Below are positions 5,581 through 10,457 of a stretch of DNA of 30,970 nucleotides, one piece after another. The stretch comes from a virus, in the IMG/VR virus record IMGVR_UViG_3300025128_000202, positions 1 to 30,970 of that record. One strand, 5' to 3'. Under the pieces are notes generated by a model. It was not told the DNA's origin, did no database searches, and was given only the letters and a program-made list of their open reading frames with translations. The first letter of the stretch is position 1; each line of letters starts with the position of its first letter. The position numbers were made by a program, and so were the translations under genes.

Positions 5581-5932
5581 AGTCAATTTTAAAAATGTTG
5601 ATTCTCCAGAGCATTATGTAAGGTCAGAAACAACTCTTGAAAATATTGAGTGTATAGATGCGATGGTTGCGGTTTTTGGTCTTGAGCATACACAAAAGTA
5701 TGCCGAGATCGCGGCTTTCAAGTACCTCTGGCGCATGAATAAAAAAAATGAAAATTCTGATGAAGACAAACACAAAGCCATTTGGTATCTAAGGTTTAGC
5801 ATGAATGACGATCCAAGAAATGGAGCAGATGTTCGAGAGGACGCTGAGTTTTCACAAGAAGAAGAGGATAACAACGCAACCATAACTGGACAGGCTTACA
5901 AGGATTTACCGGAGGAAGAAGATGCATTTTAA
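5561..5932 (+). CDS. DUF3310 family protein
   Basis: 123 aa. The segment VDSPEHYVRSE (about 10-20), IECIDAMVAVFG, and then the helix AAFKYLWRMNKKNENSDEDK followed by KAIWYLR are the typical DUF3310 pattern (sometimes annotated SaV-like or nucleotide-kinase-like). The biochemical role of the family is not established; it is common in phage nucleotide or replication modules. The C-terminus is an acidic extension. The upstream overlap with the 40-aa gene and downstream overlap with the nuclease gene (11 nt) place it inside the operon. Confidence 0.85.
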   Translation: MTKKKNKVNFKNVDSPEHYVRSETTLENIECIDAMVAVFGLEHTQKYAEIAAFKYLWRMNKKNENSDEDKHKAIWYLRFSMNDDPRNGADVREDAEFSQEEEDNNATITGQAYKDLPEEEDAF

Positions 5933-6695
5933 AGTAGGCGTTTACGAAAACGTATCGTACCCGGAGTATGCAGAGATTGAGGCATTCAGATCACATGATC
6001 TTACCTCTGTAATCAAGTGTCCTTACACTTGGAAACACCAAGGGCCAATGAAAGAGACTCCAGCGTTAATTGAGGGCCGTGTACAACACACTGTGTTTCT
6101 GGAGCTGGATAAGTTCGATGAAGAGTTTGTCATTGAACCAAACGTGGACCGCAGAACAAAAGTAGGCAAACAAGAATACGAAGATTTTAAGTCTGGCATA
6201 GGTAACCGCACTCCGATAAAGCAAGACATGTACGATGTGTGCATGGATAGACGTAAAATTGTTGAAGAGTTTGTTCCACGTGGAACTGACAGAGTTGAGC
6301 TGACAGTTTGTTTTTTTTGGCACAGTCATCCATTTAAAGCGCGCTTTGATTGGTACGATAACAAGAACGTCTGGGATCTAAAAACAGCGCGTGATGCGTC
6401 ACCCAGAGGGTTTAGAAGCGCAATCAATAATTTCAATTATCACATGCAAGCCGCACTTTATCTCGAAGCGGCTAGATCTGCAGAACTTCCAGCTGAGCAG
6501 TTTATGTTTTTGGCGCAAGAGAAGATGCACCCATACCCTTATGCTGTATATACGTTATCTGGTGAAGCCATAGAGTATGGAAAAGCAAAAAATGAACAAG
6601 CTTTAAAGACCTTGTTAAAGTGTAAAGAAAATGAAGACTACAAACCTTTTAACGTGTCTGGCATACAAGTGGTAGAGCTTGGTGATCTCTGGTAA
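5922..6695 (+). CDS. RecE-like PD-(D/E)XK exonuclease (DUF3799 type)
   Basis: 257 aa. Motifs in order: GRVQHTVFLE (52-61, the conserved H-x-x-x-L-E helix), E126, D143 in KARFDWY, D-L-K (D152, K154), and a Q-x-x-x-Y helix (Q176, Y180). This matches the RecB/RecE-type nuclease fold of PDDEXK_12/DUF3799 proteins, which degrade duplex DNA ends to produce single strands for recombination. A single-strand annealing partner is not seen nearby; the SSB-like protein may serve. ACCGGAGGA precedes ATG 5922. The 3' end overlaps the next gene by 17 nt. Confidence 0.8.
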   Translation: MHFKVGVYENVSYPEYAEIEAFRSHDLTSVIKCPYTWKHQGPMKETPALIEGRVQHTVFLELDKFDEEFVIEPNVDRRTKVGKQEYEDFKSGIGNRTPIKQDMYDVCMDRRKIVEEFVPRGTDRVELTVCFFWHSHPFKARFDWYDNKNVWDLKTARDASPRGFRSAINNFNYHMQAALYLEAARSAELPAEQFMFLAQEKMHPYPYAVYTLSGEAIEYGKAKNEQALKTLLKCKENEDYKPFNVSGIQVVELGDLW

Positions 6696-6876
6696 AGAAC
6701 AAGAAGCTAAGTGGGCTGAGGAAAAGAAATATTATGCGGCTCGGTTTGTCTGGACGAGAAGAAAAAAACGTACACCAAGCGCACGTTACAACTGGGAGCA
6801 GTGGTGGGAGAAAATGTTTGGCGACAACTATAGGGAATACACCGACAAACTGATAGCCAATAAAAAGGGAGCCTAA
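6679..6876 (+). CDS. Small basic Trp-rich protein, unknown
   Basis: 65 aa if TTG 6679 is used; GTG 6682 is an equally possible start. The product is rich in Lys, Arg and Trp (RFVWTRRKKR, NWEQWWEKMFG), suggesting nucleic-acid binding, but no family is recognised. It overlaps the end of the nuclease gene by 17 nt and closes the plus-strand operon. Its TAA stop lies in the loop of the bidirectional terminator at 6867-6882. Confidence 0.6.
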   Translation: MVISGKEQEAKWAEEKKYYAARFVWTRRKKRTPSARYNWEQWWEKMFGDNYREYTDKLIANKKGA

Positions 6877-6882
6877 GCTCCC
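6867..6882. terminator. Bidirectional terminator containing both stop codons
   Basis: GGGAGC-CTAA-GCTCCC, with AAAAA before it on the plus strand (T-tract for the minus strand) and CTCTAT after it. Convergent genes end here: the plus stop TAA is 6874-6876 and the minus stop TAG is 6873-6875, both within or at the edge of the four-base loop. The same stem-loop recurs at 7922-7937. Confidence 0.7.
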
Positions 6883-7190
6883 TCTATCATCCAGTCCTTG
6901 CCTACGCTGCTAAAAACCTCGGTTGCGAAATCTTTCGCATCCTGCAATTTTTTGAAGGCTCTGCATTGTGTTCGTGCGCCTTTTACAATTCCTTCTGAGC
7001 GAAGAAAGACGCCATTAATCGTGAGAAGGTATGGCCCACTTTGTTTGTGAATCTTTCCGATCCTTTTTTTTCTAGGGTCGTCAGTTTCGTAGATTACAGT
7101 TGTTTTGAATGGGCCACCGGGATCTGAAAAAGAGATCTCGGCTTCACGTTGCAACACGCCGCTTCTGAAGAGTGGTAAATTTGTTTTCAT
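6873..7190 (-). CDS. Small protein, unknown
   Basis: 105 aa from ATG 7190, which follows the stop of the upstream gene closely (TAACATG); a TTG nine nt further up is less likely. The product contains a DPGGPFKTTVIYETDD segment and a C-terminal KKLQDAKDFATEVF helix, the look of a small alpha/beta domain. No family recognised. Last gene of the operon whose first gene is at 7621-7809. Poor Shine-Dalgarno, so translation is probably coupled to the upstream gene. Confidence 0.65.
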   Translation of the reverse strand: MKTNLPLFRSGVLQREAEISFSDPGGPFKTTVIYETDDPRKKRIGKIHKQSGPYLLTINGVFLRSEGIVKGARTQCRAFKKLQDAKDFATEVFSSVGKDWMIEGA

Positions 7191-7191
7191 G

Positions 7192-7491
7192 TTATTCAAA
7201 GTTCCCGGCGTAGTCAGTCAGGACAACAAATTCATTGGAATCCTCTGATGCTGCATCGTCCAGAACCGCTGTCGAAAATCCAAAAGCGTTTAGAATTTTA
7301 GTAAATAAAAGAGTGTTTGCGTAGCCATCCACGTAATACATGAAATTTCCTTCGTCTTCATACGAGTCGAGCTTAGAATCTTTGATGACTTCAAATCTAT
7401 CAATCTTAGCAAAATAAAAGCTACGGTATGACGATGTATAAAGAAATTCAACATCGCCTATATCAAAACTTAATGTTACTTGCTTGCTCAT
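7192..7491 (-). CDS. Small acidic protein downstream of hammerhead A, unknown
   Basis: 99 aa, starting MSKQVTLSFD and rich in Asp, Phe and Tyr (YTSSYRSFYFAKIDRF). No family recognised. AACCGGAGA lies eight nt before ATG 7491. The predicted hammerhead cleavage site (between 7521 and 7520) would leave this gene with a 29-nt leader carrying only the ribosome-binding site. Tightly coupled to the next gene down (TAACATG). Confidence 0.65.
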   Translation of the reverse strand: MSKQVTLSFDIGDVEFLYTSSYRSFYFAKIDRFEVIKDSKLDSYEDEGNFMYYVDGYANTLLFTKILNAFGFSTAVLDDAASEDSNEFVVLTDYAGNFE

Positions 7492-7504
7492 CTTGTTTTC
7501 TCCG

Positions 7505-7588
7505 GTTAGTGGTTTTCCAAGATCCCGCCTCCTTCGGGATTTCGGCTGGTTACCATCCAGCCTCGTCAGTTGGAAGTTGTTCTCTAAC
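7505..7588 (-). ncRNA. Type I hammerhead ribozyme (element A)
   Basis: Read 5'-3' on the minus strand: outer helix I GTTAG (7588-7584), inner helix I TTCCAA (7575-7570), core CTGACGA (7569-7563), stem II GGCTGG/CCAGCC with a 7-nt loop (7562-7544), core GAAA (7543-7540), stem III TCCCG/CGGGA with a 7-nt loop (7539-7523), then T and the cleavage-site C (7522, 7521), inner helix I TTGGAA (7520-7515) and outer helix I CTAAC (7509-7505). Every required core base is present: CUGANGA, GAAA, the A15.1-U16.1 pair and C17. Helix I is open with an internal loop, as in natural type I hammerheads. It lies between two genes of one operon, with predicted cleavage between 7521 and 7520. Confidence 0.88.
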
Positions 7589-7600: not shown

Positions 7601-7620
7601 ATCAGTCTCCCCGGTTAAAA

Positions 7621-7809
7621 TTAAGTGGTGACGCTTTCCATCGCATCAAAAAGCTCGTCAAACAAATCAAACTCGTCTTCGGTAGGCTCGGCGTATTTGC
7701 CGTCTTCGATAAGTTTGTTGATAAAATCTTCCATCTCAACAGTCATTTTTGCAGGAAATGCTTCAGCAATTTTTATCATGTCGTTGCGGGTTGTCTTCAG
7801 TCTTAACAT
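7621..7809 (-). CDS. Small acidic protein, unknown
   Basis: 62 aa from ATG 7809, preferred because ACCGGAGAT lies six nt upstream; a longer frame (start 7836) would begin in the leader hairpin. Product starts MLRLKTTRND and continues with an acidic helical half (EDEFDLFDELFDAMESV). No family recognised. First gene of the operon driven by the element at 7851-7901; hammerhead A lies after it, so self-cleavage would separate its mRNA from the two genes downstream. Confidence 0.65.
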   Translation of the reverse strand: MLRLKTTRNDMIKIAEAFPAKMTVEMEDFINKLIEDGKYAEPTEDEFDLFDELFDAMESVTT

Positions 7810-7850
7810 CTTTATCTCCGGTCTCGTGGGCCTCATTGCCCAACACAGAT

Positions 7851-7901
7851 AGTATAGCTAATTGCCGTGTCCATGTATACCTTTTTATACATATTTGTAC
7901 A
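7851..7901 (-). promoter_or_regulatory. Promoter with recurring palindromic operator, operon of 7809
   Basis: Minus strand: TGTACA (7901-7896), inverted repeat ATGTATA-N6-TATACAT (7892-7873), GGACACGG, then a -10 TATACT (7856-7851). The -35 position (TATACA, 7879-7874, 17-nt spacing) lies in the right half of the palindrome, so a bound factor would act on the promoter. The same arrangement occurs at 9619-9672 and, less perfectly, 29961-30007. A short hairpin TGGGC/GCCCA follows in the leader. Confidence 0.65.
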
Positions 7902-7918
7902 CATTATTTAAGATCAAA

Positions 7919-7940
7919 AAAGGGAGCCTAAGCTCCCTTT
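7919..7940. terminator. Bidirectional rho-independent terminator
   Basis: AAAGGGAGC-CTAA-GCTCCCTTT, 9-bp perfect stem, with A-run upstream (T-run for minus) and TTTGTTTT downstream. It ends the minus-strand operon 7944-9577. The same GGGAGC-CTAA-GCTCCC stem-loop is at 6867-6882, a duplicated terminator. Confidence 0.85.
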
Positions 7941-8387: not shown

Positions 8388-8939
8388 TTACAACAAATTT
8401 AATGAGGGTAGTCCCTCTGAAATTTCTTTAATTTCTTTTAGCATCCCAAATTCTTGATCTAACCTCTGAAGCATTTTTTCTTGAAAATTTGAGCTAACAA
8501 GGCTTTCTCTGTGTCCTTGGACTAAAATACCAGAATCAAAGCGCAATCCTTTTTCTAGGCTGTAGAGTAATGCCGCAATTTCGTTTTTGCGTATGTCGGC
8601 GTTTCTTTCTAAAACATTTTTAACAGTGAATGATTCTTCTACTTTTGCTTTTTCGTTAATTAGGGCGCACTCTTTTTCATGCATCTTATTTTTTCTGTCT
8701 TCCTGTAAAGAATAAGAATATTCGTTAACAGCGCTGATCAGATTCGATTTCCACTGTTCCGCAGTGAGTTGATTTATGTAACAGACCATTTCATTCTGAG
8801 GGACTTCTATATGGGGGTTCCTCGCAGATTCTTCATCTGTTTGTTCATAATAAAAATAGCCATCGCCTTGATAAATTACTAGGCTGTTGTCGCTGAACTT
8901 CGCTAGATACTTGTTTAGTTGCTTCATTGTTTTCATCAT
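8388..8939 (-). CDS. Coiled-coil-rich protein downstream of hammerhead B, unknown
   Basis: 183 aa, charged and mostly helical (NKMHEKECALINEKAKVEES, later FQEKMLQRLDQEFGMLKEIK), probably with coiled-coil segments. No family recognised. AACCGGAGA precedes ATG 8939 closely. The predicted hammerhead B cleavage (between 8962 and 8961) would give a 22-nt leader consisting of little more than the ribosome-binding site. Second gene of the operon starting at 9577. Confidence 0.65.
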   Translation of the reverse strand: MMKTMKQLNKYLAKFSDNSLVIYQGDGYFYYEQTDEESARNPHIEVPQNEMVCYINQLTAEQWKSNLISAVNEYSYSLQEDRKNKMHEKECALINEKAKVEESFTVKNVLERNADIRKNEIAALLYSLEKGLRFDSGILVQGHRESLVSSNFQEKMLQRLDQEFGMLKEIKEISEGLPSLNLL

Positions 8940-8955
8940 CTTCTCCGGTTTAGTT

Positions 8956-9010
8956 TTCCAAGACCTTGCGGTTTCGGGGCGGGAACTACCCGCCCCATCA
9001 TCAGTTGGAA
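8956..9010 (-). ncRNA. Type I hammerhead ribozyme-like element (element B)
   Basis: Minus strand 5'-3': helix I TTCCAA (9010-9005), core CTGATGA (9004-8998), one extra T (8997), stem II GGGGCGGG/CCCGCCCC with loop TAGTT (8996-8976), core GAAA (8975-8972), stem III CC/GG capped by GCAA tetraloop (8971-8964), then U16.1 and C17 (8963, 8962), helix I TTGGAA (8961-8956). A second helix I segment TTTA/TAAA can form outside. All core bases are present. The unpaired U between A9 and stem II departs from consensus and may lower activity. It shares helix I and flanking sequence with element A, and starts directly after the TAA stop (9011-9013) of the upstream gene. Confidence 0.75.
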
Positions 9011-9577
9011 TTAAAAGTTGTAATCATAAAAAGCATATGGCCGAGGGGTTAGTCCAAATCTGCTACCCTTGTAAGTCCATTTTTCCATATCACGCTTTGA
9101 GCGCCTGATGCGAAAAACAGGAGCGTCAGTATCGCTTTCATAAGTTACTTTTTGATCGCGCTGGTTTTCAACGTGACCTGAGAAGCCACCAACGTGTTGT
9201 TTGAGATGCGCTATGTCATGCGTTGCTTTCATCTCACGAACTTCAATAGTTTTGTCGCTGATTACTTTGACAATCTCGTAAGCATGAACATCTGAGTAAC
9301 CGTATTCGCTGGCATGAGTATATTTAATGACTTTTTGGTTTATTCTGTAACGATCATCAGCTTTGGCTAATTCTTGTTTCCAGTGAGCTTTATAGATGGC
9401 TGAAGCAGTATTTTGCGTGGCTATCTCATTAGCTAAATAATCCTTCCAATTTTTTACCTCTTGCTCTTTCATAGCCTCGGCTTCTTCGCGGGTTCTAACC
9501 CAGTATGAAGGCCGTTCTTCGGCGCGCCATCCGTCCTCTGTGCGTGTTTCTAGAAAATAGTAAGTAATGTCTATCAT
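9011..9577 (-). CDS. Conserved phage protein ending KGSRFGL...FYDYNF, unknown function
   Basis: 188 aa from ATG 9577, chosen because CCGGGGAGACTGAC precedes it; a longer frame to 9631 would start in a GC hairpin of the leader. N-terminal half: GWRAEERPSYWVRTREEAEA and charged helices. C-terminal half: AYEIVKVISDKTIEVREM, then a His-rich GGFSGH segment, ending WTYKGSRFGLTPRPYAFYDYNF. I recall this C-terminal pattern from many phage and plasmid hypothetical proteins; no activity is known to me. First gene of its operon, separated from the next gene by hammerhead B. Confidence 0.75.
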   Translation of the reverse strand: MIDITYYFLETRTEDGWRAEERPSYWVRTREEAEAMKEQEVKNWKDYLANEIATQNTASAIYKAHWKQELAKADDRYRINQKVIKYTHASEYGYSDVHAYEIVKVISDKTIEVREMKATHDIAHLKQHVGGFSGHVENQRDQKVTYESDTDAPVFRIRRSKRDMEKWTYKGSRFGLTPRPYAFYDYNF

Positions 9578-9594
9578 GTCAGTCTCCCCGGTTA

Positions 9595-9612
9595 GTGGGG
9601 GGCCACCCCCCC
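9595..9612 (-). promoter_or_regulatory. GC hairpin in the leader of the 9577 gene
   Basis: Minus strand GGGGGG-GTGG-CCCCCC lies between the promoter (9619-9672) and the ribosome-binding site. The sister leader (before 7809) has a smaller hairpin at the same place. A 5'-end stabilising hairpin is the simple explanation. Confidence 0.4.
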
Positions 9613-9618
9613 GACACA

Positions 9619-9672
9619 GATATAGTCTCATATTTCCGTGTCCATGTATAGCTTTTTATACATATTTGTACA
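9619..9672 (-). promoter_or_regulatory. Promoter with recurring palindromic operator, operon of 9577
   Basis: Minus strand: TGTACA (9672-9667), ATGTATA-N6-TATACAT (9663-9644), GGACACGG, then TATATC (9624-9619) as a possible -10. From TGTACA to the first G of ACACGG the sequence is nearly identical to the copy at 7865-7901. The downstream ATCTGTGT is also shared, which may mark the transcription start. Confidence 0.6.
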
Positions 9673-9731: not shown

Positions 9732-10457
9732 TTAGGAGATGTTGTTGATCAATTCAACAATTCTTGATTTGTCACACAGCCAAAAAACCATCAGGTATCG
9801 ATCACCCTTGCCAACGGGCAGGCCACGGTGGTTGTGCGTGAATGATGGGAAGATAAGTGCGTGTCCATTAGGCAGTGGCTTGAGTTTGCCGTGATTGTGA
9901 AACTCTGTGCCACCGCCCGTGTAGTCGCCTGTATTCAACGGAACCACCACACTGATGTCAGCACTCTCATCATGATGCCAATGGCCCATGTCCCGTTCTT
10001 CAATGTTGTAATTTGCTATTTGAATGGTAGCGGGATCTGGGCAACTGCGTTGCCAAATTGACATGATGACCGGGTTAATAATGTTGCGAACAACGAACCA
10101 CATGTTGTGGTAAAGCTGTGGACAACGCTCCATCAAAACTATTTCAGGAATTTGCCTAAGCTTGTCTTCATCTTCATTGCCCTCAAATCCAAACTCCTTT
10201 TTCATATGCTCTATCTCCTCTACCATCATCTTGCACCAGCTACGCCTGAAGATTGGCATGGTGTAGACATCAGGGAATGGATTGCTCAGCATTTTATGGA
10301 TTGGCGTTTTCTTCATTTTGCCAACACCCTTCTGTGCCGCGTACTTAGTAATGATAGGCAGAGAGTCCTGAACCGCCTTGTAAGTGTTCTGGTTTATCAT
10401 CCAGTGGCTCTGCATTGAGAGCATGTAATTTTTTAACTGATACATATGTTTGCACAT
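9732..10457 (-). CDS. 2-oxoglutarate/Fe(II) dioxygenase, prolyl-4-hydroxylase-like
   Basis: 241 aa. The C-terminal half carries the jelly-roll iron site: H161-x-D163 in GHWHHDESAD, the Gly-rich TGGGTEF strand, and a distal His in SFTHNHRGLPVGKGDR (H208/H210) followed by R220, which would bind 2-oxoglutarate. This family hydroxylates protein or nucleic-acid side chains using O2 and 2OG; phage versions have unknown substrates. The N-terminal 110 residues are helical. It is a monocistronic minus-strand gene facing two small plus-strand genes. ATG 10457 has no good Shine-Dalgarno. Confidence 0.85.
   Translation of the reverse strand: MCKHMYQLKNYMLSMQSHWMINQNTYKAVQDSLPIITKYAAQKGVGKMKKTPIHKMLSNPFPDVYTMPIFRRSWCKMMVEEIEHMKKEFGFEGNEDEDKLRQIPEIVLMERCPQLYHNMWFVVRNIINPVIMSIWQRSCPDPATIQIANYNIEERDMGHWHHDESADISVVVPLNTGDYTGGGTEFHNHGKLKPLPNGHALIFPSFTHNHRGLPVGKGDRYLMVFWLCDKSRIVELINNIS

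Follow-up and report, generated by a model that had tools for sequence, protein, structure and literature searches.

What hammerhead ribozymes do in bacteria and phages is an open question (PMC6155905), and it is raised here by a hammerhead motif, element A, that lies between two small genes of an uncultured virus. The window, the whole 30,970-nt stretch of DNA analysed, carries this motif with the following parts.

7510..7575, minus strand: element A, type I hammerhead ribozyme, from stem I to the pseudoknot strand (descriptor; covariance model, 73.6 bits)
7575-7570 (UUCCAA) with 7520-7515 (UUGGAA), minus strand: stem I, 6 bp (sequence)
7563..7569, minus strand: core CUGACGA (sequence)
7544..7562, minus strand: stem II and loop II, arms GGCUGG (7562-7557) and CCAGCC (7549-7544), 6 bp, loop AUGGUAA (sequence; homolog covariation)
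7543-7541, minus strand: G12A13A14 (sequence)
7522..7543, minus strand: GAA, A15.1-U16.1 (7540-7522), then stem III UCCCG/CGGGA, 5 bp (sequence; covariation)
7534-7528, minus strand: loop III AAGGAGG
7520..7521, minus strand: predicted cleavage, C17 (7521) ^ U (7520) (hammerhead consensus)
7492..7520, minus strand: 29-nt leader of the 3' product, Shine-Dalgarno (SD) GGAG at 7503-7500 (sequence)

Judged by its sequence, element A was confirmed as a complete type I hammerhead ribozyme and a real observation. The core C3U4G5A6N7G8A9 and G12A13A14 are present, together with three stems, the A15.1-U16.1 pair and an H17 that is not G, and stem I is open while stems II and III are closed by loops, as in type I. 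The sequence-only reading, which had placed a canonical hammerhead of type I, its core intact and its stems I, II and III 6, 6 and 5 bp long, in a phage operon of small genes, with cleavage at 7521^7520 and a 29-nt leader that carries a ribosome-binding site, was borne out in these respects; the cleavage site is a prediction that agrees with the hammerhead consensus, and the leader is 29 nt long because the downstream ATG lies at 7491. Folded alone, the 61-nt RNA of element A had the hammerhead as its minimum free energy structure (-21.5 kcal/mol). In its 106-nt context stems II and III formed, and stem I was set against a competing pairing with a slightly better fold.

A strict hammerhead descriptor found element A as the sole site in the 31-kb window. 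A slightly relaxed descriptor found both element A and a second site, element B (9010..8956 without its pseudoknot strand), and gave no matches in ~3.1 Mb of reversed control.

8951..9010, minus strand: element B, second type I hammerhead (relaxed descriptor; covariance model, 41.8 bits)
8962^8961, minus strand: predicted cleavage of element B
8988-8985 (UAGU) with 8954-8951 (ACUA), minus strand: pseudoknot of element B

Element B has one additional U (8997) between A9 and stem II. The same extra U recurred in 11 of the 198 distinct viral hammerheads among the matches listed, always followed by G10.1, and one of its carriers (L174) is a near-identical copy of the window. Across 175 sequences, comprising the window and viral loci retrieved by pattern scans, the relaxed descriptor found 249 hammerheads in 159 sequences among the matches listed and none when the sequences were reversed, a count that describes structure and not prevalence because the loci were selected by patterns. 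Counts from the first IMG/VR pattern scan are to be read as "at least". The stem I and core of element A are common to the matches of that pattern by construction, since the collection patterns came from element A.

To score the window independently, the covariance model R1 was built from an alignment (A1) of 30 viral hammerheads that left the window out. On the window it gave 73.6 bits for element A (E = 8e-19) and 41.8 bits for element B (E = 1e-9), and the best noise reached 11.6 bits. In A1, 97.6% of cells were paired and two-sided changes occurred in 17 of 21 pairs; the covariation score was 0.574, compared with 0.168 for shuffled and at most 0.111 for slid alignments, and all four helices were supported, pseudoknot included. 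The search patterns had set some A1 positions in advance, and the covariation was carried by the free ones: three pairs of stem II (15-31, 17-29 and 18-28), stem III, the pseudoknot strand and, among pattern-2 hits, stem I.

Rfam at the gathering threshold returned no match for element A. With relaxed settings the best match was RAGATH-1-hammerhead (RF03152), at 21.4 bits against a gathering threshold of 56.3 (E = 0.85), and Hammerhead_1 (RF00163) gave no match to element A; with scores below the gathering threshold, element A is not placed in either family. The sequence-only reading had proposed an Rfam hammerhead search of the minus strand, with a missing match as refutation. The search gave no significant match although the ribozyme is real, so the absence of an Rfam match was a badly chosen criterion, and a common group of viral hammerheads escapes Rfam screening. 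Close relatives of element A were not found by blastn against INPHARED, nor were hammerheads found in ten cultured phages (nine capsid-protein relatives and one blastn lead). In 85,000 prokaryote genomes one pattern had no matches and another had two, of which one, in a metagenome-assembled genome (L186), is a real hammerhead and the other, in Paenibacillus, is a chance match.

Two tertiary contacts could be drawn for element A, one of which had been proposed by the sequence-only reading as a 5-bp outer helix of stem I.

7510..7513 (ACCA) with loop II 7555-7552 (UGGU), minus strand: pseudoknot of element A (complementarity; pair counts)
7588-7584 (GUUAG) with 7509-7505 (CUAAC), minus strand: letters of the outer stem I helix

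The letters of the outer helix are present, but they are not conserved, and we rejected this helix as a contact. Its 5' arm lies inside a ~39-nt stretch that is missing at a 97%-identical twin ribozyme in locus L104, and no counterpart was seen at element B, so the helix is incidental. The contact that the sequences support is a predicted pseudoknot that joins loop II to the strand following stem I. At least four Watson-Crick pairs between loop II and the 3' flank were present in 42 of 66 distinct ribozymes, compared with 13.9 expected and a maximum of 26 in 500 permutations, and other ribozymes paired with different letters (UUGC/GCAA, UGGC/GCCA, UAGC/GCUA, UGAU/AUCA). Elements A and B both have the pseudoknot as defined by Perreault 2011, with ≥4 bp from a loop to the 3' flank of the open stem.

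The position of element A between two genes had been called unusual, but intergenic placement is the rule for viral hammerheads, as was published in 2011 (PMC3088659). Among the matches listed, a start codon with an SD lay downstream of 238 of 249 viral hammerheads (median 29 nt from the cut, quartiles 25-34) and a stop codon lay upstream of 227 of 249 (median 0 nt from stem I). With tighter limits, 199 of the 249 among the matches listed (80%) had both, compared with 4% of random same-strand and 2% of antisense positions; gene calls came from a simple script, and the contigs include many that are fragmentary and related to one another. Counted as distinct relatives, ~200 among the matches listed lay nearly all between a stop and a start codon. 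The stop upstream of element A is 45 nt from the ribozyme, and that of element B directly abuts stem I. In 49 of the 249 viral hammerheads among the matches listed, the upstream gene has the UGA of the catalytic CUGA as its stop codon.

The AAGGAGG of loop III had been read as a perfect SD that could be used or masked by folding; its use as a functional start was not supported. GGAGG in loop III occurred in 12 of 198 distinct ribozymes among the matches listed compared with ~3 expected, a modest excess that comes mainly from one related group. In the window the motif leads only to a UUG with a 4-codon ORF, which cleavage would part from its SD.

Each of the two ribozymes in the window is preceded by the first gene of an operon.

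7839..7901, minus strand: promoter-region repeat ahead of the element A operon, 84% direct repeat of 9610-9672, promoter-like at 7879-7851
7621..7809, minus strand: 62-aa gene of family c13, upstream of element A
7602..7617, minus strand: putative fossil leader, behind the 62-aa gene and ahead of element A; its 16 nt match the leader at 9579-9594 exactly (repeat D9)
7192..7491, minus strand: 99-aa gene downstream of element A, without family match
6873..7199, minus strand: ~104-aa gene, last in the operon of element A
6862..6883, minus strand: hairpin closing the operon of element A, identical to that at 7917..7940 (repeat D4)
9610..9672, minus strand: promoter-region repeat (63 nt) upstream of the operon of element B
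9011..9577, minus strand: 188-aa gene of family c26, upstream of element B, with a stop codon that abuts stem I
8388..8939, minus strand: 183-aa gene downstream of element B, with a 22-nt leader
7917..7940, minus strand: terminator-like hairpin closing the operon of element B

The promoter-region repeat with ACATGGACACGG stands upstream of three phage operons (7839-7901, 9610-9672 and 29970-29985). The first-gene leader CACUAACCGGGGAGA (9579-9598) resembles the cleavage leader of element A, CACUAACCGGAGA (repeat D5), and the geneless leader copy at 7602-7617 reads as the possible trace of a lost gene. A search for relatives of the 99-aa gene found none.

Elements A and B both lie within a variable zone with the following borders.

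9732..10457, minus strand: 2OG-Fe(II) oxygenase, one border of the zone
5922..6695, plus strand: exonuclease-like gene, the other border (homologs annotated exonuclease VIII / PD-(D/E)XK)

The same borders were found in 19 ribozyme-bearing contigs, and the small genes between them varied. A hammerhead directly followed the 62-aa family in the window and in L027, L006, L094, L137 and L141, and the genes behind the hammerhead differed where they were readable. In L104, L014 and L037, too, a hammerhead comes after the homologs of the 188-aa gene. The DNA of this gene hardly differs between the window and L104, with a promoter and hairpin leader upstream of it in the window, and another gene and a hammerhead, the one 97% identical to element A, upstream of it in L104. 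Homology between the two loci runs from the SD leader to the 3' side of stem I of the next hammerhead and stops there; in that next hammerhead, stem II and the pseudoknot differ between the loci yet pair in both.

An unbiased sample of the zone was obtained from relatives of the oxygenase protein, chosen blind to ribozymes. Hammerheads were present in 6 of the 72 complete zones, with 7 copies, all co-directional and none outside the zone. The hammerhead is therefore not essential, as relatives of the zone mostly lack it, and close phage relatives differ in its presence or absence at this one zone. Zones with a hammerhead were among the longest, at 1.7-3.3 kb, and those without measured 0-2.1 kb (P = 5e-5 for 49 distinct zones, sequences not independent). 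Where only one of two compared junctions had a hammerhead, the neighbour was the same in 18 of 269 downstream-gene comparisons, against ~49% without hammerheads, and in 18 of 111 in the other neighbour comparison, against roughly two fifths. Junctions with a hammerhead at both compared loci were only modestly less syntenic than others. As these comparisons read, gain or loss of a ribozyme would usually accompany a changed neighbour gene. In 180 of 293 near-identical ribozyme pairs, neither flank was recognisably homologous.

Several phages had 2-7 hammerhead copies in one zone, and most loci had one copy. In loci L121-L172, the same 4-nt stem I was found in 46% of comparisons within genomes and 8% between genomes, hinting at possible duplication or gene conversion. 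We also observed a hammerhead variant (L012:1153-1237; L064:9648-9733, minus strand; L099:1902-1986 and 2562-2647; L188; L194) with two tandem hairpins and a conserved AGGUAGCAGURAUGCC instead of stem III. Rfam gave no match for the variant, and the replaced part could be a ligand-binding or tertiary module.

We consider it probable that A and B are active type I hammerheads that cut the polycistronic mRNA in cis after its first cistron and would insulate the next gene; cleavage of the phage mRNA between cistrons is very likely. Each operon runs from its own promoter region through a first gene, the hammerhead and one or more further genes to a terminator-like hairpin. Cleavage of the fold, which is stabilised by pairing of loop II with the nucleotides that follow stem I (the pseudoknot), would give the first cistron a 3' end structured by stems II and III and bearing a 2',3'-cyclic phosphate, and would provide the next cistron with an SD and a short 5'-OH leader of its own (29 nt for element A, 22 nt for element B). 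A cargo gene behind a hammerhead would then have a defined 5' end regardless of the preceding gene, and this independence is why such insulation would suit a zone of constantly exchanging genes. Structure, covariation, position and the exchange of neighbours are what the sequences show, and cleavage in the cell, insulation and a benefit are what we infer. It is a more tentative idea, possible but short of an even chance, that hammerheads are natural mRNA insulators carried along at the joints between cargo-gene cassettes that are exchanged in a plasticity zone of the phage, where they would replace the promoter and leader of newly inserted genes and so make the cassettes plug-and-play.

These observations could also be read in other ways. 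Ribosomes finishing the upstream gene might keep the ribozyme unfolded, making it a translational coupling switch that is cleaved only when that gene is poorly translated. Stops that abut stem I (median 0 nt), as at element B, and that coincide with the UGA of CUGA (49 of 249 among the matches listed) agree with such a switch, but the stop of element A is 45 nt upstream and tight phage gene packing equally explains stops near stem I, and we regard the switch as rather unlikely. Less likely still, the hammerheads might chiefly be DNA joints, short conserved modules that aid homologous recombination of cassettes, with cleavage of minor importance. Near-identical ribozymes between unrelated genes (180 of 293 pairs) and the end of window/L104 homology at the 3' end of stem I would be expected of joints; compensatory changes would be needless, yet stem II, stem III and the pseudoknot stay paired, and neither the strand nor the place with respect to stop and start varies.

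Release of single-gene RNAs by neighbouring ribozymes, followed by circularisation or splicing as in rolling-circle or ligation schemes, is very improbable: the 2-7 copies per zone in several phages and the stem I that copies in one genome often have in common (46%, against 8% between genomes) are in its favour, but most loci have one copy, and Perreault et al. sought spliced or circular products and found none (PMC3088659). A chance look-alike or a decayed, inactive ribozyme has marginally the smallest probability, since the missing Rfam match at the gathering threshold is opposed by the R1 E-values, the intact core, the covariation and the absence of control matches.

The movement of hammerheads together with interchangeable cargo genes points to a specific role that can be tested; the reading that we prefer is that of cis-cleaving insulators between cistrons. 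In one genome a gene follows a promoter, in another the same gene follows a hammerhead, and the question of role therefore becomes a simple reporter experiment. Over prior work in the open-access literature, the present analysis adds a link to exchangeable cargo, which the locus comparisons support, and the suggestion that the cut may insulate the next gene.

Hammerheads flanking single phage genes, and the processing of phage mRNA by them, were described in 2011, with clustered hammerheads in prophages of Azorhizobium, Agrobacterium and Clostridium scindens and in phages PaP3 and Bcep176; related clustered bacterial hammerheads cleave themselves in vitro and in E. coli (PMC3088659). The hammerheads of the window resemble that set in lying between or flanking single genes, in the pseudoknot of a loop with the 3' flank, and in the proposed mRNA processing. 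Cleavage was shown for the 2011 set, whereas it is predicted here, and our hammerheads come from contigs of uncultured viruses, match hardly anything in 85,000 prokaryote genomes, and sit at the joints of a defined cargo zone. With Hammerhead_1 (RF00163) and the RAGATH-1 hammerhead (RF03152), element A shares the core, three stems and an open stem I, but those models do not capture its loops and pseudoknot flank. RiboJ, a synthetic-biology insulator, consists of a hammerhead and a hairpin before the ribosome-binding site and normalises the 5' UTR (PMC7536230). The position of the window hammerheads fits this design, with a hammerhead directly before the ribosome-binding site that would leave a defined 5' end. 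They differ from RiboJ in being natural, in lying between two cistrons of one operon and in having no separate hairpin behind, and their insulating effect is a proposed one. In phage T7, RNase III sites between genes allow the polycistronic mRNA to be cut between cistrons, leaving protective hairpins. There the cut is made by a host protein enzyme, whereas here the RNA is predicted to cleave itself.
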